In this document: piece after piece, positions 2,086 through 31,238 of the stretch
Numbering within the stretch: position 1 is the stretch's first letter
Layout of the letters: every line of letters begins with the position of its first letter
Virus record (IMG/VR): IMGVR_UViG_3300032053_000282
Location: 1-33,722 of that record
From: a virus
Direction: 5' to 3' (one strand)
Length of the DNA stretch: 33,722 bases
The notes under the pieces: generated by a model
The model's database searches: none
Told to the model about the DNA's origin: nothing
Seen by the model: the letters and a program-made list of their open reading frames with translations, nothing else
Translations under genes and position numbers: made by a program

Positions 2086-4224
2086 TTATGCCAGATAGCC
2101 GCCGTCTTCCGCGGCGATGTACTCGATCGAAGCGATGAGGTTCAGCGCCGTCGCCCCTCCGCCGGTCGGGTCGACTTGGATCGTCCCGCCTGCCGGGAGG
2201 TAGACCCTCCCGCCGTTGCTCGCCCACGACACCTGCTTCCCCGCCGCGTCGAGGTTCGCCCTGAGCCCGGCGACCGCGTCGACGAAGGTGACCACCGTCC
2301 CGGCCCCCGCCCCCTGAGCGACGATGTTCGTGAGGTCCGCCGTCTGGGCTGCGACTGCGTAGAGCGTGAAGCTCTTGATGAGGACCGGCTTCGTCGTCGC
2401 CGTTGCGATGACCGTAGCCGCGGCGTTCGCAGCGATGGCGATCGGGACGTTGAGCACCTGCGTCTTGCCGGTCAGCCGGTTCACCGCGGCGACCGCCCCG
2501 GTGACCCCGTTGTTCACCGTGGTCACTCCGAGTAGGAGGTTCTTTGCGTAGCCCATCAGCGACCCGCCAGCGACTGTGTCCGTCTTGTTGCCGACGACGT
2601 CCCGCATGTTCGTGTTCGCCGCTGAATCCGCGCCCGGGACCGCGATCGCCGTAGCCAGAACGCCAGCAGCGTCTGGAACCACAAGCGCGCCAATAAGCCC
2701 CGCAGCGGTTCCTGCGACATCAGGGACAACGAGCGCGTTGACCGCGTCCGCGAGCCACCTGATGAGCAGGCCAGCCCTGACGTTGTCCGCGATGGAGCCG
2801 TCCGCAGCGTCGAGGGAGGTCGTCTCGACCTCGGTCGCGCCTCCCGGAAGGTTGTCCGCGATCCACCGCAGGATGAGGCCCTCCCTCTGGTTCGCCGCGG
2901 CGCTCCCGGCTCCGATGCCGAGAGAAGCAGTTTCAAGCGCCGTCCTTGAAGCGGAGAGCCCGAAGGTTCCGCTATCCAGCCGGTCCGTCACGAGGCAGGT
3001 GTAGAGCGGCTTCCCTGCAGTGTCAGGTATTCCCAGCGCGGCGAGCAAGCTCTGGAGGTTCGTCTGAGCGACGAAGTCGCCGATGTTGCCGTAGAGCGAT
3101 TTGTTCGCCGCGTCCGGGTTGCCGAGCAGCGCAACGATCGTCTGGAGGTTCGTCCTCGCGGAGGGATTGCCGAGGTCCGTCTGGATCGCGTCGACCGCCG
3201 CCTGCACGTACTCCTGCCGCTCGACCACCGACCCGTCGGCGTTCGCCACCACGAGAGAGGTGTCAGCCACGTTGTTGTTGTTGTTCGCCCCGAGGAGGAC
3301 GCTCATCCAAGCGTCGCGCGGGAGGATGGTGTACGTCGCAGACGCCACGATCGGAAGCGGGAACGGGTTCTCGACCGTCACCGTGTCCGACGCCGCGTCG
3401 AAGTCGGAGACGACCCTCGAAAGCCCGACGTTCGCCCCGGACGTCATGACGAGAATCTGCCCGTTGAAGTAGTCGTCCACCTGCGTGAGTGCGTTGTCAA
3501 CGAGGGTCGCCGTGGTTCCGTTGTCAGCCGTGCCGCTGATCGTCCCGGCTATCCCGAGGCCCGCGAGAATCGCGGCGAGGTCCGCCGCAACCGATCCGGC
3601 TGCTCCGTACCCGAGCTGCACGTTCAAGCTCTGCGCCGCGGGGTTGCCGAGGATTCCGTAGATGTCACCGAGCGTCGCGGCGGATCCGTCGCCTACGTCG
3701 TCCATCAGGTCGGCGATGTTCCCGTCGATGGAGTCGAACCGGTCCTTGACCGTAGAGGCGTCGTTGCCGAACTTCGCCGTCAGGTCCGCGAGCGAGTGGG
3801 CCCTCATCGGTCCGACGAGGCCAGCAACGTCGCGCATCTGGTCAGTGTGGTTCGCGTACCCCGTCTTCCCGTTCATGTACGCGGCGGCCGCTAGGTCGAC
3901 TCCTGCGCCCGGAGCTGCTAGGACGGAGACCGCAGACGCCGGGCCGACGGACGGGCTCACGATCTCGAAGTGGTCCGAGTTCCACGTGCAGAGCGTCCCC
4001 GTGAGCGAGGCCGCGAGCGCCGTCTGGACCGCCGTCGCGACGAGCGCCATCGTGGTCGCCCCCGTGAAGTCCGGGGTCACGTTGGAGTACTTCGTCCCGT
4101 CGATCGTGACCGTGAATTTTCCTGTGTTCGTGAGCGCGGCCCACGTCGCAGCGACCGCAGTCCCGGCCGCGCCGCAGACAAGCCGCGCCGCTCTGGCCGT
4201 GGTATCAGTTTTTGCGTAACCCAT
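2086..4224 (-). CDS. Large low-complexity tail protein (fibre/whisker type)
   Basis: A 712-residue protein, strongly enriched in Ala, Gly, Leu, Asn and Asp. Residues about 20-125 form a beta-rich domain with the run GKFTVTIDGTKYSNVTPDF and a later DHFEIVSPSVGPASAVSVL. This resembles the DUF3383-type fold of phage tail proteins, by eye only. The middle holds degenerate repeats around LLGNPDAANKSLYGNIGDF and ALGIPDTAGKPLY, and a later pair around REGLILRWIADNLPGG and RAGLLIRWLADAVN. The C-terminus looks like a globular beta domain. Length, repeats and position among appendage genes suggest an elongated fibre or whisker. No family was identified with certainty. Confidence 0.65.
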   Translation of the reverse strand: MGYAKTDTTARAARLVCGAAGTAVAATWAALTNTGKFTVTIDGTKYSNVTPDFTGATTMALVATAVQTALAASLTGTLCTWNSDHFEIVSPSVGPASAVSVLAAPGAGVDLAAAAYMNGKTGYANHTDQMRDVAGLVGPMRAHSLADLTAKFGNDASTVKDRFDSIDGNIADLMDDVGDGSAATLGDIYGILGNPAAQSLNVQLGYGAAGSVAADLAAILAGLGIAGTISGTADNGTTATLVDNALTQVDDYFNGQILVMTSGANVGLSRVVSDFDAASDTVTVENPFPLPIVASATYTILPRDAWMSVLLGANNNNNVADTSLVVANADGSVVERQEYVQAAVDAIQTDLGNPSARTNLQTIVALLGNPDAANKSLYGNIGDFVAQTNLQSLLAALGIPDTAGKPLYTCLVTDRLDSGTFGLSASRTALETASLGIGAGSAAANQREGLILRWIADNLPGGATEVETTSLDAADGSIADNVRAGLLIRWLADAVNALVVPDVAGTAAGLIGALVVPDAAGVLATAIAVPGADSAANTNMRDVVGNKTDTVAGGSLMGYAKNLLLGVTTVNNGVTGAVAAVNRLTGKTQVLNVPIAIAANAAATVIATATTKPVLIKSFTLYAVAAQTADLTNIVAQGAGAGTVVTFVDAVAGLRANLDAAGKQVSWASNGGRVYLPAGGTIQVDPTGGGATALNLIASIEYIAAEDGGYLA

Positions 4225-8286: not shown

Positions 8287-9903
8287 CTATCCGAGCGTCG
8301 ATCCGAGTTTGACGCCGTTGACGTAGTAGAAACCTTCGCTTGTCCTGATGTCGTGCGTGAACTGGCTCTGCTCGTTCGACGGCTCCTTCCAGTCGAGTTC
8401 GTCGTGGAACGGATGGCCGTCGGACATGACGACCTCCTTCCCGCTCTTGAAGACGTGACGGAAGAACGTGTGGCCCCTCGGGCGCATCGACTGAGAGACC
8501 TGAAGGACGACGCCCCCCTTGACCTCGTCGCCCGGCTCGATGATGTCCACCGGGAAGGTCCCGCCATCCGACATCTCGATCGGAGTCCCTGCGGGCAAGC
8601 ACATGAGCGCCGCGGCGCCGAGCGTCGCGCCTGCGGGGATGAGCGACCCGAGAAGCCCGGGAGACCCAGGGGACCCGGGGCTTCCGCCCGTCGAGAGCTG
8701 GTAGAGCCGGAAAAGGTCCTCCATCGGCTGGCGGTTCGCCTGCGTCTGTAGGGACCACTCGTTGACCCCCTGCTGCCTTCCGGTGAGCCCCTGCTGGTAG
8801 TTCGCCTGCTGCCGCTGGAGCGCCATGTTCGCCATCTGCGACGCCTGAGCGTCCGTTGCTCCCTGCTGGCGGAATATCTCCTCGGCCTGAGCCGTCTGCT
8901 TCTGCCAGTTGGCGTTCTGCTGCGCCTGCTGCTGCTGCCATCCCATGCCCTGTAGGTACTGGTTCGCGCCGAGCTGCTGCTGCGCCTGCTGCGCGCCGAA
9001 CTGGTTCGACAGGTTCGCGAGCCGGTCTCCCTGATCCCTCTGCTGCATCTGCATCGCGCGCGTCGTGGCGCCGGAGGTGAGCATACCCCTTCGGTTCATG
9101 TCCGCCATGATCTGCTCGCGCTGCAGACCACCGGTCCTCTCCGCCTCTCGGTTCGCCATCGCCATCTGAGGCGTGAAGGCGTCGCCCACCATCTGCTGCG
9201 CGGTCATCCCATTCGTCGGGTCGGTGTACTGCGAGCCCTGAAACTGGTACGGGTTCCGCGCAGCGTACTGCGGGGTCGTCTCCGCGAGGTTCGCCTGCCC
9301 CTGCGCGATGAGGTTCTGTAGGTTCCCCGCCTGCGTGCTGAACGCCGCCCGCTGCTCCGGGGTATACTGCTTCTGCGTCATCTGCTGCTGGAGCTGCGCG
9401 AGCTGGTTCTGCTGCCCCAAGAGTCCGCCCGCGGTCGCGATCGTCGGCTGCAGCTGTCCTTCGAGCTGCTGTCCAGCGGTGAACCGGTTCTGGTTCCAGT
9501 ACGGCTGGGACGACTGCATGATGCCCTGAGTCCTCTGCGCCGCTTCAAGCTGCTGTCGGAGCTGGTCGTCGCCTCCTGAGAGAGTCGTCTGGTATCCGCC
9601 TTGAATGATCTGGCCGGTGCGCGGGTCGCGGGTCATTCCCCCGCCGCCGATCATCCCTCCGCCAGCGCCCATGACTCCGGGGAACTGGAACGTCGGCGTC
9701 TGCTCCTGCCCGCCTCCGGACGCCTGCCACTGCTGCTGGAGCTGCGCGACGCGCTGGTTCTGCGAGTCGAGCATTTCCGGGGTCATGAACTGGCCCATCA
9801 TGTACGAGTTCAGGATGTCGCCCTGGTTCTCCCACCCCGGGCCTCTGAACGGCTGGGGTGATTCAGGTGCGCTCCCGAAAAGTGTCTCGCCCGCTGAGAT
9901 CAT
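8287..9903 (-). CDS. Gln-rich internal virion protein with C-terminal Hint (intein-like) domain
   Basis: A 538-residue protein in two unlike parts. Residues 1 to about 400 are very rich in Gln, Asn, Ala and Met (QQWQASGGGQEQ-type stretches) and mostly helical. A short SPGSPGSPG linker and a hydrophobic stretch follow. From Cys435 to the end there is a Hint domain: CLPAGTPIEMSDG with the catalytic Cys, then VDIIEPGDEV, a block-B-like MSDGHPF with His, and a closing HDIRTSEGFYYVNGVKLGS. Hint domains of Hedgehog and intein type cut the peptide bond before the Cys. Here there is no C-terminal His-Asn and no extein after it, so only N-terminal cleavage would be expected. The start ATG overlaps the stop of the GNAT gene (ATGA). 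The Hint call is confident; the virion role is from context. Confidence 0.8.
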   Translation of the reverse strand: MISAGETLFGSAPESPQPFRGPGWENQGDILNSYMMGQFMTPEMLDSQNQRVAQLQQQWQASGGGQEQTPTFQFPGVMGAGGGMIGGGGMTRDPRTGQIIQGGYQTTLSGGDDQLRQQLEAAQRTQGIMQSSQPYWNQNRFTAGQQLEGQLQPTIATAGGLLGQQNQLAQLQQQMTQKQYTPEQRAAFSTQAGNLQNLIAQGQANLAETTPQYAARNPYQFQGSQYTDPTNGMTAQQMVGDAFTPQMAMANREAERTGGLQREQIMADMNRRGMLTSGATTRAMQMQQRDQGDRLANLSNQFGAQQAQQQLGANQYLQGMGWQQQQAQQNANWQKQTAQAEEIFRQQGATDAQASQMANMALQRQQANYQQGLTGRQQGVNEWSLQTQANRQPMEDLFRLYQLSTGGSPGSPGSPGLLGSLIPAGATLGAAALMCLPAGTPIEMSDGGTFPVDIIEPGDEVKGGVVLQVSQSMRPRGHTFFRHVFKSGKEVVMSDGHPFHDELDWKEPSNEQSQFTHDIRTSEGFYYVNGVKLGSTLG

Positions 9904-22425: not shown

Positions 22426-22452
22426 CGTGAAACGTGCCTGCACGTTATCACG
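22426..22452. repeat. 12-bp inverted repeat at the end of the Mom-like gene
   Basis: CGTGAAACGTGC and GCACGTTATCACG form a near-perfect inverted repeat around a CT centre (one unpaired A at 22447). It covers the stop codon of the Mom-like gene and the 37-base gap before the DUF6496-like gene. There is no T run on either strand, so it is not an ordinary terminator. It could be an mRNA hairpin that controls the downstream ribosome site or a dimeric-protein operator. Confidence 0.6.
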
Positions 22453-23263
22453 AACCCTTGACTTCTGCAACGTCTTGAGCGCCGAGGTCGGATGTGCGCC
22501 GCCCTCCCCCAGCTGGTAAGCTGGGTGCATCGCTGCCTATGCTTTCGGCGCTGATAGGTTTCCCCTTGTACATCCGGGCACCGCACTTCTCGATCTCTGA
22601 AAATGGAACGACCGGGACGGCAAGGTTCTCGCGGGCTTTTGGGTCGAGGAAGTAGATGTATCGAAGCTGAAACCCCGGCAGGGGATGAGCCCCGGCTTCC
22701 TTCAGGTGCTTCATGGAAGCGGCACCGGTCTTGAGAATGTTCTTGCCTTTTGCCGCAGCAACTTTGTTGATCCGGCGGTTCACTCCTGCGCCGATGCGAT
22801 AGGAGATGTCGGTAAAAACTTCATCGCCAAGCTCCCAGATGGTCGTGTTCTTCTTGATTCCGGTGAGCACGAACCCGCTCGCCCGATAGATCGTCCCGTC
22901 ACCGCATTGCGTACCATCCGCGAAGCTCACCACCCACTTCATCCACGGATAGGTCTTTTTTATCCACCGCATCGCGAAGCTGATCGCCCTGCTCTCCGAG
23001 TTTCTCGGAAGCCAGTCGGAAAAGGCCAGCCGGTTGAGCTCAAGGAACTCGTTCCAGAGAGTCCCCTTCACCAGCCCGAGCATCTTGCGCTTGTCGAGCG
23101 AAGGCCCGAACTGCATCGCTCCGCCGAGGCGATCGTTCAGGAAAACCCCGAGATGAAGCTGGGAGTTCATCACGACCTTGCGAGAGTAATGCACCGCCCG
23201 GATGACCTTGTTGGCATCCGCTGCCGAGATCGGCTTGACGATGATGTTCTTCGCATCACCCAT
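22448..23263 (-). CDS. Mom-like adenine-modification protein
   Basis: 271 residues from the ATG at 23263, which overlaps the end of the ParB-N gene by eight bases. The core matches the Mom family: VIRAVHYSRKVVMNSQLHLGV, LGGAMQFGPSLDKRKM, ELNRLAFSDWLPRNSESRAI, then WVVSFADGTQCGDGTIYRA and SGFVLTGIKKN. Phage Mu Mom is a GNAT-related enzyme that converts adenine to methylcarbamoyl-adenine in DNA, protecting it from restriction. The conserved core supports the same kind of reaction here. The last 40 residues are a variable tail. Substrate sequence and chemistry were not tested. Confidence 0.85.
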   Translation of the reverse strand: MGDAKNIIVKPISAADANKVIRAVHYSRKVVMNSQLHLGVFLNDRLGGAMQFGPSLDKRKMLGLVKGTLWNEFLELNRLAFSDWLPRNSESRAISFAMRWIKKTYPWMKWVVSFADGTQCGDGTIYRASGFVLTGIKKNTTIWELGDEVFTDISYRIGAGVNRRINKVAAAKGKNILKTGAASMKHLKEAGAHPLPGFQLRYIYFLDPKARENLAVPVVPFSEIEKCGARMYKGKPISAESIGSDAPSLPAGGGRRTSDLGAQDVAEVKGS

Positions 23264-23906
23264 TGACGAACCTCTGCGCGATGAAGGCGAGCGCGTTCCC
23301 GTTGCTGTTCTCGTTGATCGGGTTCTCCCCGGCCCCGGACTCCTTCGCCTTGTCGATGGCAGCGTTGATCTCTTCAACCTGCTCATCGTGCAAGGTGAAC
23401 GTCATCTGCTGAAAGTGCTCGCGATCGCCTTGAGAGAGAGCAGGGGGTTCCACCTCTTCCGCGCTCAATCCGAAAATGTCCGGCAGGTCAATGGCCGGGA
23501 GCAGGTCCTTGAGATCGAGACCGGCCTCCATGAAGAAGTCCGCCAGCCCCGACTCGTCGATGCGCCCGTACCGAGAAGCCGCGAGCAGGACCTTCGCCTT
23601 CGCTTCCTTGCGATCTTTCGCGTCGATGAACACGACAGGCATCTCGTCGGCCGGAAGATGCCATCCCTTATCTGCGAGCTGTTTCAGAACGAAAACGCGC
23701 TGGTGGGAGTCGATGATGTAGTTCTTCCCCTCGTTCCGCCAGATGAAGCCGGGGAACGTGAGCCCGTACTTCAATATCGAGCTTTCGATCTTCTGCGCCT
23801 CCTCCTTGCGGAGGGTTTTAAGATCGCCCTGAAAGTGAATGAGGTCAAAAATACTGACCTTGTCCTTGGTCTCGCAGGTCACTCGGATTTCTTTTTCACC
23901 CGGCAT
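23256..23906 (-). CDS. ParB-N (ParB/sulfiredoxin-like) domain protein
   Basis: 216 residues. The N-terminal part shows the ParB-N pattern: an HFQGDLKTLRKEEAQKIESS helix, YGLTFPGFIW (box I-like), then NYIIDSHQRVFVLKQL (box II-like, with DSHQR where partition ParBs have GERR). The C-terminus FTLHDEQVEEINAAIDKA and ENSNGNALAFIAQRF is shared by phage ParB-like proteins found beside DNA methylases and modification genes. The central parS-binding HTH domain of true ParB is absent. Tight coupling to the Mom-like gene suggests a joint role in DNA modification or nicking. That pairing is inference. Confidence 0.8.
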   Translation of the reverse strand: MPGEKEIRVTCETKDKVSIFDLIHFQGDLKTLRKEEAQKIESSILKYGLTFPGFIWRNEGKNYIIDSHQRVFVLKQLADKGWHLPADEMPVVFIDAKDRKEAKAKVLLAASRYGRIDESGLADFFMEAGLDLKDLLPAIDLPDIFGLSAEEVEPPALSQGDREHFQQMTFTLHDEQVEEINAAIDKAKESGAGENPINENSNGNALAFIAQRFVNG

Positions 23907-26353: not shown

Positions 26354-26786
26354 TGATCGCCTCCCTCTCGGAAAGACCCTCGTAGATGTCCACGAACCGC
26401 CGCTCGTGCCAGTCCTTGTCGGCCGTCAGGGCTTGCCCGTACCCACCGCCCGCGAGGCGGAACGCGCGCTGCGCGCGCTGCGAAGATGTCAGCTTGATGA
26501 AGTCCGGGTCCGAGTCCGGGCGCCCCTCCCAGAACAGGTTGAAGACGATCTTCGCCTCGTTCCTCGGGCTGCAATGCCCCCGGAGCTTGCTCTTGATCTC
26601 GAAAAGCCCCGGCGGGAACGCCGATGGGCTCTGCTGCTGGACCGCTCGCACCGCGGCGATCGCATCCGCCGCCGGGACGTCCGGAAGCTCCGAGGCCCAG
26701 ACCATCGTCGTCGCCTTGTCCGGCCGCCATTGCGGGAACACCCCGAGCATCCACGCCACCAGCTTGTTCGTCTCCTGAATTTTCAC
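26238..26786 (-). CDS. Helicase-loader-like replication protein
   Basis: 182 residues from GTG 26786, which shares GTGA with the stop of the preceding replication gene and has GGGAGGCGG upstream. The N-terminal about 80 residues (LVAWMLGVFPQWRPDKATTM, then VWASELPDVPAADAIAAVRA and FPPGLFEIKSKLRG) resemble the N-terminal domain of the G40P-helicase loader family (gp39P of SPP1). Its partner upstream is a replisome-organizer-like protein, the usual pairing. The last about 38 residues overlap the SSB-tip gene and may be a shadow of it; the true end is uncertain. Confidence 0.6.
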   Translation of the reverse strand: MKIQETNKLVAWMLGVFPQWRPDKATTMVWASELPDVPAADAIAAVRAVQQQSPSAFPPGLFEIKSKLRGHCSPRNEAKIVFNLFWEGRPDSDPDFIKLTSSQRAQRAFRLAGGGYGQALTADKDWHERRFVDIYEGLSEREAINEMGRQRLGAGQGPALLEAGRENLEQRAEGDAGEGARA

Positions 26787-27544
26787 GCCCGCCTCCCTTT
26801 GAGATCGTCCTCGCTCAAAAGCGCGTTGGTATACCGCTCCTGACCGACGAACCCCTTCTTGCCCTCGACTGGACGCTCGATCTTGTTGAGCCAGTTCACG
26901 ATGAACCGCCGGGACTTCACCCGCCCCGGCTTCGTCGAGAGCCAAGCGTCCATCTTCCCGAGCTCGCGGTCGATGTCGATTCCCTTGTAAGTTGGGTTGA
27001 CCTTCAGGCCTTCAAGGAATTGATCGTCCGTGAGAGACGCGCTGCGGCTTTTTGCAGCGCGCTGTACAGCTTTAGATGTTGCTTTACTCTTCTCTGTCTC
27101 TGTCTCTGTCTCTGTCTCTGTCTGTGTCAATCGGGGACCGTTTTGTCTACATTCTGTCGACGGACCTTGATTTTCAAGGGCTTTATCCCTCGCTCGATAT
27201 TCTCGGGCCTTGATCCGCTGATAGTCCCGCCGCTCATCGAGGGACATTTTATTTCTGTATTTCTCGCCATTTATGATGAACCAGCCACCCTCGACCCGCT
27301 TGATTCGCCTGCCCTCGTCGGCCGTCGTTCTGGAGTAAGGGTCGGGGGATGAAAGGACTCGCAGGGCTTCCTCGCACTCCGGCATCGAAACGCGCGCGGC
27401 ATCCGCCAGACCGGGCAGCGACGCCTCGACCATGCTCCAGCGATCCCGCAGCGCGAGCATGGTGATCCACACGATCCGGACGTGGTTCGGCTCGCGCCAG
27501 ACGGTGGACATGACGATTTCGGAGAAGAGTTTCGTGAAACCCAT
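26783..27544 (-). CDS. Replisome-organizer-like protein (winged HTH)
   Basis: 253 residues. The first 95 match a common phage replication winged-helix domain: FTKLFSEIVMSTVW, VRIVWITMLALRDRWSMVEA, SLPGLADAARVSM, PDPYSRTTADEGRRI, and VEGGWFIINGEKYR. A charged linker follows with a TETETETETE run coded by a DNA hexamer repeat. The C-terminal 90 residues (SLTDDQFLEGLKVNPTYKG and WLSTKPGRVKSRRFIVNWLN) resemble the DnaD-tail region. Such proteins bind the origin and recruit the helicase through the loader encoded next. An AGGGGGG ribosome site precedes the ATG. Confidence 0.8.
   Translation of the reverse strand: MGFTKLFSEIVMSTVWREPNHVRIVWITMLALRDRWSMVEASLPGLADAARVSMPECEEALRVLSSPDPYSRTTADEGRRIKRVEGGWFIINGEKYRNKMSLDERRDYQRIKAREYRARDKALENQGPSTECRQNGPRLTQTETETETETEKSKATSKAVQRAAKSRSASLTDDQFLEGLKVNPTYKGIDIDRELGKMDAWLSTKPGRVKSRRFIVNWLNKIERPVEGKKGFVGQERYTNALLSEDDLKGRRA
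27091..27126. repeat. Hexamer microsatellite in the replication gene
   Basis: Five exact copies of TCTCTG (27091-27120) plus a partial sixth. They lie inside the replisome-organizer-like gene and code for alternating Thr-Glu in a linker. The unit is six bases, so copy-number changes would keep the frame and vary linker length only. Confidence 0.9.
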
Positions 27545-28775: not shown

Positions 28776-29288
28776 TTATACTCCTTTCCAGCTCCTGTCC
28801 TTCAAGATTCCACAAATACTCTGCTCGCTTACCATAAACATTTTCGCGAGGTCCCTGTTGCTTTTTGTCGTTTGCATTTTTCGTATATCCTTCACGTCTT
28901 GAATTGTTAATTTTGCATTGGCTCCCCTTCGGGTATTTTCAGCAATCGTCACCGGCTCCAGATGTTCCGGGTTCACGCATCGTCTGTTTCTGCAAATATG
29001 ATCCAACGTCAACCCATCCGGTATTCGTCCCTTAAGTTTTTCATAGACGAAACGGTGCGCCAGCAAATGACCTCTTTGCCCATACCCTCCTCGAAGAATA
29101 TGTCGCTCCCAGTTCCAGCATCCGGTTGCTTTATCAACAGACCACATCTTCTCCGACAAACGATTCCAATGTCCCCTGATGAACTTAATGGGTTTCCCTT
29201 TTTGCCATCCCTTTGTGGTGTCGGTCTGCTTTGCGATTTTCGTTTTTTGCCCGCAACCACATTGACAAAGACCACTAGGAATTTTCAT
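28776..29288 (-). CDS. HNH homing-type endonuclease
   Basis: 170 residues. N-terminal CQCGCGQKTKI and KFIRGHWN precede an HNH domain: CWNWERHILRGGYGQ, LLAHRFVYEKLKGRIP, LTLDHICRNRRCVNPEHLEP, then TIAENTRRG. A C-terminal HTH-like stretch (NRDLAKMFMVSEQSICGIL) suits DNA recognition. The gene is plainly AT-richer than both neighbours. It sits between two functionally linked recombination genes and its ATG lies 14 bases inside the ERF gene end. These facts indicate a mobile insertion. Confidence 0.85.
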   Translation of the reverse strand: MKIPSGLCQCGCGQKTKIAKQTDTTKGWQKGKPIKFIRGHWNRLSEKMWSVDKATGCWNWERHILRGGYGQRGHLLAHRFVYEKLKGRIPDGLTLDHICRNRRCVNPEHLEPVTIAENTRRGANAKLTIQDVKDIRKMQTTKSNRDLAKMFMVSEQSICGILKDRSWKGV

Positions 29289-30045
29289 CGCCGGGCTCCC
29301 TCGTTGGTTCTTTTTGGTCTTGGACCCAAGTGCAGATATCTGTGTAGTCGTCCTTCGTGATGAGCTTCGTCGAGTCGATGTGGAACGACTCGGCGAGGTG
29401 CTTCTTCAGCGTCTCGTTGCTGACGCCCGACTCCTTGCAGAGCGCGAACAGGCGCTTCTGCTGCGGCTCCGAGATCGCGTTCTTCGGGCGCTCGACCGTG
29501 GCCCCGAGAGCGTCTGCGGCCGCCTGCGGCATGATCCCCGTCGCTCCGGTGGGCTTCGCAGCCGCCGCCGTCTCGGACGCCCGCTTCGGCATCGGCGTCG
29601 AGCCCTTGCCGGACGCGGCGTTGCCGTCGTCGTCCTCGTCCGAGACCACCCCGACCATCGCCGCGAGAGCGTACCGCCTCGCATAGGTGATCGCCGATCC
29701 GACGCCCTGCGGGTCGTTCTTGACCGGCTTGAGCGTCAGAGACCCGCGGACCCATTGCCCGGAGGAGTGGACGATCATCGTGTGGATCGTCACCCCTTCC
29801 CCGGAGCCCGAGGTCGGCTGCAGGACCGCGAGCTTCTGCTTCGAGAGCGCCGCCCGGCAGGAGTCCCAGACCTGCGAGAGGTCCGCGTAGCTGCTCTTGA
29901 AGAACGGATTCTCGCTGTCCTTCTTCGCGGCCTTCATCTCGCCCTGCGCCAGAGCGAGCGCCGCTGCCAGCTCCCCTATATCCGGGCTGAACTCCAGCGT
30001 CGGAGGCGCGGGCGGTGCCATGTCGTACTGCGGATTCGGTTCCAT
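29275..30045 (-). CDS. erf: ERF-family single-strand annealing recombinase
   Basis: 256 residues. The ERF core is at residues about 25-140: ELAAALALAQGEMKAAKKDS, NPFFKSSYADLSQVWDSCRA, LSKQKLAVLQPTSG, HSSGQWVRGSLTLKPVKNDP and the signature GSAITYARRYALAAMVGV, then DEDDDGN. ERF proteins anneal single strands and circularise or recombine phage DNA. The C-terminal part is a low-complexity linker and a small domain (KRLFALCKESGVSNETLKKH). The start has AAAGGAAAATCAAC upstream. A sigma70-like promoter pointing the other way begins two bases before its ATG. Confidence 0.88.
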   Translation of the reverse strand: MEPNPQYDMAPPAPPTLEFSPDIGELAAALALAQGEMKAAKKDSENPFFKSSYADLSQVWDSCRAALSKQKLAVLQPTSGSGEGVTIHTMIVHSSGQWVRGSLTLKPVKNDPQGVGSAITYARRYALAAMVGVVSDEDDDGNAASGKGSTPMPKRASETAAAAKPTGATGIMPQAAADALGATVERPKNAISEPQQKRLFALCKESGVSNETLKKHLAESFHIDSTKLITKDDYTDICTWVQDQKEPTREPGDENS

Positions 30046-30148: not shown

Positions 30149-30361
30149 CTACTCGTAGAACCACCCGACCGGCTTCCCGAGAATCTTCGAGAGCGCGAGC
30201 ATATACTCGCCGCCGGGCGTGTGCTTCCCGCCCTCCCACATCTTGATGACCTGCCGCGACCCCTTGCCCGCGGTCTTCACCAGCTCGCGGTAGAGGTCCG
30301 AGGGGCTCATCCCCTTCGCAATTCTCGCGGCCTTCAGCCGGGCCGCCTTGAACTTCCGCAT
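30149..30361 (-). CDS. XRE-family HTH protein (repressor/Cro candidate)
   Basis: 70 residues, a single helix-turn-helix domain: FKAARLKAARIAKGMSPSDL, then GSRQVIKMWEGGKHTPGGEY and LALSKILGKPVGWFYE. The W-E-x-G-K-x-x-P and L-A-x-I-L-G-K-P-V-x-W pattern is that of the XRE/Cro-CI class. AGGAGGTGATGAA precedes the ATG. It has no C-terminal oligomerisation or peptidase domain, so it resembles Cro or a short regulator. The neighbouring inverted repeats (30064-30098 and 31466-31506) are possible operators. Confidence 0.75.
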   Translation of the reverse strand: MRKFKAARLKAARIAKGMSPSDLYRELVKTAGKGSRQVIKMWEGGKHTPGGEYMLALSKILGKPVGWFYE

Positions 30362-30365
30362 TTCA

Positions 30366-30620
30366 TCACCTCCTCTCGTCGTCGAAGGCCTTCTGCTGCA
30401 GCTTCTCGTCCGCCGCAGCGAAGACCATCTGGTTGTCGTCGGCCTTGACGAGCTCCTCGCCGTTCTTCCAGACGGTGATCTCGTCGATCTCGGCGTCCCA
30501 CCTCATCTCGCCGCGGTTCCCGTCGGCGTCGGCCCCGTGCTCGTACCGGGTGAGCTTGACGTCCGCCTCTGCGGAGAACTCGTCCTCCCCGTCCTTCCAC
30601 TCCACGTAGGTGTTCGGCAT
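30366..30620 (-). CDS. Small acidic protein, unknown
   Basis: 84 residues from the ATG at 30620 (AAAGGAGAATTTG upstream). It is acidic, with alternating strands (TYVEWKDGEDEFSAEADVKL, DAEIDEITVWKNGEELVKAD). No family recognised. The stop lies four bases before the ATG of the XRE gene, whose ribosome site is inside this gene's end, so the two are coupled. An anti-restriction or host-takeover role is conceivable for a small acidic early protein, but nothing in the sequence proves it. Confidence 0.6.
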   Translation of the reverse strand: MPNTYVEWKDGEDEFSAEADVKLTRYEHGADADGNRGEMRWDAEIDEITVWKNGEELVKADDNQMVFAAADEKLQQKAFDDERR

Positions 30621-30670: not shown

Positions 30671-30892
30671 TCACCCGTCCCCGTACCCGTACCCGGACCC
30701 GTCCCCGTACCCGGACCCGGACCCGTACCCGGACCCGGACCCGTCCCCGTCCCCGTCCCCGTCCCCGTACCCGGACCCGGACCCGTCCCCGTACCCGGAC
30801 CCGTACCCGGACCCGGACCCGTCCCCGTCCCCGTCCCCGTACCCGGACCCGGACCCGTGGTGCCGAAGTTTAATCTTCGATGTGCTTTGCAT
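30671..30892 (-). CDS. Gly-(Ser/Tyr/Asp) dipeptide-repeat ORF
   Basis: 73 codons. A basic head MQSTSKIKLRHHG is followed by about 30 Gly-X pairs in which X is Ser, Tyr or Asp, encoded by GGG-TCC, GGG-TAC and GGG-GAC. The ATG at 30892 lies inside the end of the DUF6948-like gene and has GGAGGCGACCT upstream, which argues for translation. The repeat array itself may be the functional element and the protein incidental. If made, it would be disordered and phase-separation-prone, like Gly-Tyr/Gly-Ser linkers. No family known to me. Confidence 0.5.
   Translation of the reverse strand: MQSTSKIKLRHHGSGSGYGDGDGDGSGSGYGSGYGDGSGSGYGDGDGDGDGSGSGYGSGSGYGDGSGYGYGDG
30674..30859. repeat. 31-copy hexamer array, G-quadruplex-prone
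   Basis: Thirty-one consecutive hexamers of the form CCCG(T/G)(A/C) on the plus strand: CCCGTC, CCCGTA or CCCGGA, with a last CCCGTG. On the minus strand GGG recurs exactly every six bases, a textbook potential G-quadruplex series. Units are grouped (for example two GA units then a run of TC then TA), showing growth by duplication of larger blocks. Copy number may differ between isolates and could be an assembly-sensitive value. Confidence 0.95.
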
Positions 30893-31238
30893 AGGTCGCC
30901 TCCGCTGCGGGGGTCGTGGGGATGATCTCGATGACGTTCGTGAGGAAGACCTCGCCGGTCTTGTTCAATCGGCCATCTTTGATTCCATTATTCGCCACGG
31001 CAGAGAGCGACAGACCACCGCCACTCCATTTCCAAAGGCGGAGCGCGTTCTCCAATTGCACTTCCATGCCGTTCTCAGGGTTCACCCACACAACGTCACC
31101 GATATGCACTCCGGCGGAATACGTACGAAGCAGGCAACGCCGCCCCAGCATCGGATGCACCGACTGCGGCACCTTGCCGCCAATCAAACCCTGCAGCTGC
31201 TTCACTTCGCCCAACGTCAAATCGTCTAGTTTTCCCAT
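30870..31238 (-). CDS. DUF6948-like phage protein
   Basis: 122 residues from the ATG at 31238, preceded by AAGGAGGAAC. The core LLRTYSAGVHIGDVVWVN, then ENALRLWKWSGGGLSLSAVA and VFLTNVIEIIPTTPAAEATY, matches a small phage protein family that I know as DUF6948 (signature R-T-Y-S-A-G-V, R-L-W-x-W and E-I-I-P). Its function is unknown. It is the second gene of the leftward early region. Confidence 0.7.
   Translation of the reverse strand: MGKLDDLTLGEVKQLQGLIGGKVPQSVHPMLGRRCLLRTYSAGVHIGDVVWVNPENGMEVQLENALRLWKWSGGGLSLSAVANNGIKDGRLNKTGEVFLTNVIEIIPTTPAAEATYAKHIED

Follow-up and report, generated by a model that had tools for sequence, protein, structure and literature searches.

A hexanucleotide array in a phage genome very probably encodes a glycine-alternating protein paired with DUF6948

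Proteins in which glycine alternates with serine and tyrosine are known from silk fibroin, with its (GX)n repeats, from the keratin-associated high Gly-Tyr proteins, and from the [G/S]Y[G/S] domains of FUS-type proteins, and some eukaryotic Sm/LSm proteins carry Gly-rich low-complexity tails. The phage Gly-X proteins described here resemble the first three in their low complexity and in the alternation of Gly with Ser or Tyr, and their repeat is likewise predicted to be disordered. No homology to those proteins was shown, and the phage proteins differ in adding Asp (about a quarter of X residues), in their length of 50–130 aa, and in being tied to a phage gene. That gene encodes DUF6948 (Pfam PF22253), whose Pfam entry names the domain alone; neither the linked Gly-X gene, its near-constant neighbour, nor an Sm-like fold appears in the family description. 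A survey of low-complexity regions found aromatic residues to be strongly under-represented in those of prokaryotes and phages (PMC6821194), so Tyr-rich Gly-X tracts are unusual.

The window analysed here is the whole 33,722-nucleotide stretch of IMG/VR virus record IMGVR_UViG_3300032053_000282 (positions 1 to 33,722). Its minus strand contains a hexanucleotide array at 30674..30856, built from 30 units of GGG followed by TCC, TAC, or GAC and closed by a final GGG, as read from the sequence and with TRF, which reported a period of 6 with 31.0 copies (30673-30858) and a 36-bp superperiod within the array. The strict six-base periodicity noted in the preliminary description is thus real. Read from 30856 to 30674, the minus-strand units comprise 12 TCC, 10 GAC, and 8 TAC with no fourth type, bordered by CAC and TGA. 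With S for TCC, Y for TAC, and D for GAC, their order is S S Y D D D S S Y S Y D S S Y D D D D S S Y S S Y D S Y Y D. First-order Markov simulation of the window (200 replicates) produced runs of at most 4 GGGNNN units vs 31 observed, and the array is the only one of its kind in the whole record.

The array lies within an open frame of 73 aa (30671..30892, minus strand; MQSTSKIKLRHHGSGSGYGDGDGDGSGSGYG...GYGYGDG*), whose product reads MQSTSKIKLRHH-(Gly-Ser/Tyr/Asp)30-Gly. Its translation, MQSTSKIKLRHHGSGSGYGDGD...YGDG*, begins at an ATG preceded at 6 nt by a Shine-Dalgarno-like GGAGG (30899..30903, minus strand) that is situated inside the coding sequence of the upstream gene. This upstream partner (30870..31238, minus strand; 122 aa) is a DUF6948 member, scoring 70.7 bits against a Pfam cut-off of 27 over residues 33-114, and was characterized further with AlphaFold2, Foldseek, and VIA-align. 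The two genes overlap by 23 nt on the same strand in different frames, so that the repeat-gene ATG falls 23 nt before the DUF6948 end, a start position shared with relatives of the module, and the repeat gene occupies the same place in those relatives. Glycine alternates with Ser, Asp, and Tyr in 12, 10, and 8 of the 30 X positions. Downstream are an HTH_3 gene (30149-30361) and an ERF recombination gene (29275-30045), the arrangement given in the preliminary description, as well as an 84-aa ORF (30366-30620) between the repeat and HTH_3 genes, for which a search for relatives found none. We consider it almost certain, from the sequence and from comparison with relatives, that the array codes for a small (Gly-X)n phage protein, where X is Ser, Tyr, or Asp, with its own ATG and a Shine-Dalgarno site inside the DUF6948 3′ end. 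Sequence matches of the repeat protein in the PDB were low-complexity matches without meaning and were discarded.

In order to follow this arrangement in other phages, relatives of DUF6948 were retrieved solely by DUF6948 sequence, independently of the array, and counted as distinct loci with enough sequence, including cultured phages recovered by tblastn. A Gly-X array lies directly downstream of DUF6948 in 65 of 68 distinct phage loci and upstream in one, an outcome of the comparison with relatives that the preliminary description had proposed. The remaining two loci (L270 and L356) contain Gly-rich ORFs in which the alternation is interrupted and falls below the automatic threshold. Iodobacter phage PhiPLPE, Vibrio phage IKEMa6-1, and Chlorobiaceae phage CV-1-33 likewise carry arrays behind DUF6948, and cultured phages with complete genomes contain the array, annotated as a CDS. 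With respect to DUF6948, most of the downstream arrays (51/65) occupy the +1 frame, as in the window. The repeat gene has its own ATG in 67 of 70 loci, commonly 23, 17, or 29 nt before the DUF6948 end (the first two most often), and Shine-Dalgarno-like sites precede 40 of these 67 ATGs, compared with 17% of the ATGs used as controls (p about 1e-14). These results agree with the earlier proposal that the array codes for a Gly-Ser/Tyr/Asp dipeptide protein and that this protein has a ribosome site of its own. A +1 frameshift fusion with DUF6948 was considered and, though conceivable, set aside as not needed, because own ATGs are near-universal and Shine-Dalgarno-like sites are enriched; in-frame fusion of the array to DUF6948 itself was found at one locus (L112). 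A search for DUF6948 in plasmids gave no match.

Several GGG arrays run into a domain of ~115 aa, labelled A2 here, which gave no Pfam, NCBIfam, or PHROG match and whose predicted structure had no convincing fold match in the PDB. Loci were gathered by conserved A2 motifs alone, and in 71 of 72 distinct loci with upstream room the array is fused in frame to the N-terminal side of A2; DUF6948 is also encoded upstream in most of them. This near-universal in-frame fusion establishes the Gly-X frame as the one that is read, and shows its translation together with a conserved domain. In a predicted Gly-X/A2 fusion, the repeat is disordered (pLDDT < 50, residues 1-27) and A2 is folded. As a counterpoint, profiles of the two domains recognised neither partner beside 16 of the 50 mixed GGG arrays whose flanks were good. 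The A2 proteins (L376-L455) carry the motif FWRSD..G..NGG...GPL..C...LHAT..P.KWKGER.W.VALIGEV..D.K..AL.REI.GE, and their N-terminal Gly-X tract sits behind a short peptide with RGE.P.

The array's codons indicate at which level it is conserved. In DUF6948 relatives the units read GGC TCT/TAT/GAT, or are built on GGT or GGA, instead of GGG; GGG is the majority Gly codon in 16 of 140 comparable arrays, the others using GGC, GGT, or GGA. Across these 140 arrays the X residues are dominated by Tyr (1497), Ser (1440), and Asp (1042 of 4406), in proportions that are similar for GGC, GGT, and GGG arrays (Y.35/.34/.36, S.34/.36/.30, D.23/.19/.26); eight GGA arrays are more mixed than the other classes. 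Arrays that use different Gly codons overlap in composition by 0.79 when read in the Gly-X frame vs 0.29 and 0.43 when read in the other two. Deviations at Gly positions are synonymous in 143 cases vs 52 non-synonymous, with one third synonymous expected by position alone. The third bases of X codons track the GC content of the flanks (rho 0.54, n=132), and both the TCN and AGY families of Ser codons are used. Tyrosine is absent or nearly so in some arrays, namely L285, which uses Asp, His, and Ser, and L281, which is mostly Ala.

Three AT-rich loci (L248, L256, and L265) contain clusters of Gly-X ORFs behind DUF6948 in which little tandem repetition is left: their 24 Gly-X ORFs mix the Gly codons GGA (283), GGT (231), GGG (108), and GGC (71). 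On this evidence, read from sequence, the alternating-Gly pattern of the protein is seen to outlive the DNA repeat in these loci. The clusters consist of 7-9 different consecutive ORFs (L248:5734-8738, L256:5716-7635, L265:5429-7931), many of which begin M-x-x-L-L-x-x-H-H.

These codon data bear directly on a role for the nucleic acid itself, which the preliminary description had raised: the G-rich strand, here the sense strand and a match to the G3N3 pattern, would form G-quadruplexes that pause a polymerase or tune expression. The GGG of the array is a Gly codon, and GGC, GGT, or GGA stand at the same place in most relatives; what is conserved is an amino-acid alphabet in one frame. Since GGG predominates in only 16 of 140 arrays, any quadruplex potential is probably incidental, and a G-quadruplex function was rejected as very improbable because G-runs are not conserved. 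The preliminary description also suggested a variable-length tuner; repeat length does differ between close relatives, as detailed below.

Arrays with identical surroundings differ in length. In four comparisons, unit numbers are unequal (13/23, 34/52, 33/55, and 21/37) despite 400-nt flanks that are 100% identical. Since repeats can be misassembled in metagenomes, the comparison was extended to cultured phages. The DUF6948 genes of the Pectobacterium phages Ymer, Abuela, and Amona are identical, and their repeat proteins are 73, 73, and 67 aa long, respectively; the repeat protein measures 85 aa in Taid (DUF6948 99.7%), 53 aa in Pappous, and 89 aa in Koroua. The N-terminus MSKLIKPE[KR]Y is constant among the compared Pectobacterium phage proteins, and repeat coding lengths in cultured phages vary by multiples of six bases.

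A scan with the pattern GGGKMC returned at least 119 viral and at least 119 bacterial stretches, numbers that give no prevalence. The viral count, obtained for the GGG form alone, does not bear out the rarity in phages claimed by the preliminary description. At least two of the three unit types are mixed in 112 of 119 listed viral arrays vs 12 of 119 listed bacterial ones (Fisher p about 6e-44). The GGGNNN arrays listed from bacterial genomes are mostly uniform runs, and such simple homogeneous runs would be the precedent for reading the array as a neutral microsatellite, expanded by slippage across a chance open frame, or as an assembly artefact. This explanation is hardly credible, given the mixed units of the viral arrays, the fixed neighbour genes and frame, the CDS annotations in complete cultured-phage genomes, and the retention of Gly after codon decay; the fixed neighbours, frame, and codon pattern led us to rule out a microsatellite or mobile-DNA reading. 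One bacterial entry, L223 from a Caulobacter sp. MAG, has a 33-unit mixed S/Y/D array at 3646 (minus strand), the longest among the genome-scan matches listed, and is perhaps a prophage.

The comparisons make it very likely that the repeat gene and DUF6948 belong to one conserved module, widespread among phages, whose repeat lengthens and shortens by whole 6-bp units as protein-level selection keeps its residue alphabet.

A model of DUF6948 was predicted with AlphaFold2 from 64 sequences (pLDDT 88, pTM 0.73). It consists of an N-terminal helix and a small five-stranded Sm barrel, the architecture of Sm/LSm proteins. Foldseek searches of the PDB ranked Sm/LSm proteins first (E about 1e-3), and in VIA-align the model aligned with Sm/LSm chains with Z up to 9.2 (Lsm1-7, rmsd 1.8 Å over 67 residues), all 50 entries among the matches listed being Sm/LSm-type. 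Matches in BFVD at E<=0.001 were four DUF6948 proteins and one uncharacterised Rheinheimera phage protein; Sm-like phage proteins in that database matched the model much more weakly. Searches of PDB sequences gave no DUF6948 match at E<=1, and at E<=0.1 the sole Pfam match was DUF6948, with no sequence-level similarity to known Sm/LSm families. DUF6948 probably has an Sm/LSm-like fold, as predicted from one monomer. It differs from the Sm/LSm/Hfq RNA-binding proteins in lacking a sequence match to a solved structure and in that its low-complexity part is usually a separate polypeptide. A small beta-barrel of this kind need not bind RNA.

We tentatively propose that DUF6948, as an Sm-like protein, would bind RNA or single-stranded DNA early in infection, and that its disordered, Gly-rich, Tyr-studded, acidic partner would supply weak multivalent contacts. 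Tyr residues would make the contacts, Gly and Ser would serve as spacers, and Asp would tune the charge. The outcome may be a nucleoprotein assembly or condensate whose properties are set by residue composition and length and not by exact sequence. That composition stays constant while order and length vary freely is as such a multivalent-contact model predicts, and a strict version with Tyr as the sticker is weakened by the Tyr-poor arrays L281 and L285. This mechanism, from Sm-like nucleic-acid-binding DUF6948 to multivalent assemblies, is possible and no better than that; the chain of gene, module, fold, and mechanism taken together we place somewhat below an even chance. A broader version, in which phages of many hosts carry a two-part condensate kit comprising the Sm-like nucleic-acid-binding protein and, as a separate chain, a hypervariable Gly-X scaffold with Tyr and Asp that is selected for composition but not for sequence, which would form an early-infection compartment or RNA granule, seems unlikely.

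The Gly-X chain, flexible and hypervariable, may instead act on or beside DUF6948 or A2 as a silk- or bristle-like spacer, coat, or decoy whose length variation would allow escape from host recognition. The predicted disorder of the repeat, the rapid change in length and order between identical flanks, and its fusions in which it links a short N-terminal peptide to A2 are consistent with this explanation, but a pure spacer would not need near-constant Ser/Tyr/Asp proportions across codon types; we regard it, too, as a doubtful though reasonable candidate. An acidic nucleic-acid mimic, with the Asp-bearing chain as a competitor of DNA or RNA for binding to a defence or regulatory protein of the host, would fit the Asp content of the repeat and its early-region position beside the HTH and ERF genes. 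It is rather improbable, as the Asp share varies widely, some arrays are mostly Gly-Ala (L281), and the structure prediction shows neither a helix nor an ordered charged surface.

Gly proteins of low complexity are a known kind, as are Sm-like proteins, and it is their pairing in phages, together with the hypervariable Gly-[S/Y/D] class, that appears new. In the open-access literature, no paper was found that names DUF6948 or describes the module, and searches there for hexanucleotide repeats and for Gly-X or Sm-like proteins of phages gave nothing on it. The locus represents a widespread, testable phage gene pair in which a protein is kept by composition and not by sequence and varies in length between near-identical phages, and it offers a natural system for what selection sees in low-complexity proteins. 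It also carries a warning for annotation, as Gly-X genes have been assigned wrong frames (MAMALA... in Chlorobiaceae phage CV-1-33 and MW202478) or left unannotated (in the PhiPLPE record), and contig ends fall inside Gly-X arrays. The wrong-frame MAMALAMA... annotations in public phage records lie at L294:1282-1854 and L292:1786-2031.

Other features of the window were recorded in passing. A second hexanucleotide tract (27087-27128), located in an ORF at 26783-27544 (minus strand) whose product has no Pfam match, codes TETETETETE, and a similar tract, TETETDEDEDTDTETK, occurs in the ORF that follows the Gly-X gene of L293 (2120-2518). A Mom family DNA-modification protein is encoded at 22448-23335 (minus strand; PF25680, 174 bits), overlapped by an ORF (23256-23906) that looks ParB-like by eye and has no Pfam match. 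The C-terminal part of the ORF at 8287-9903 (minus strand), CLPAGTPIEMSDGGTFPVDIIEPGDEV..., has no Pfam match at E<=1e-3 and resembles, by eye, a Hint/intein start.
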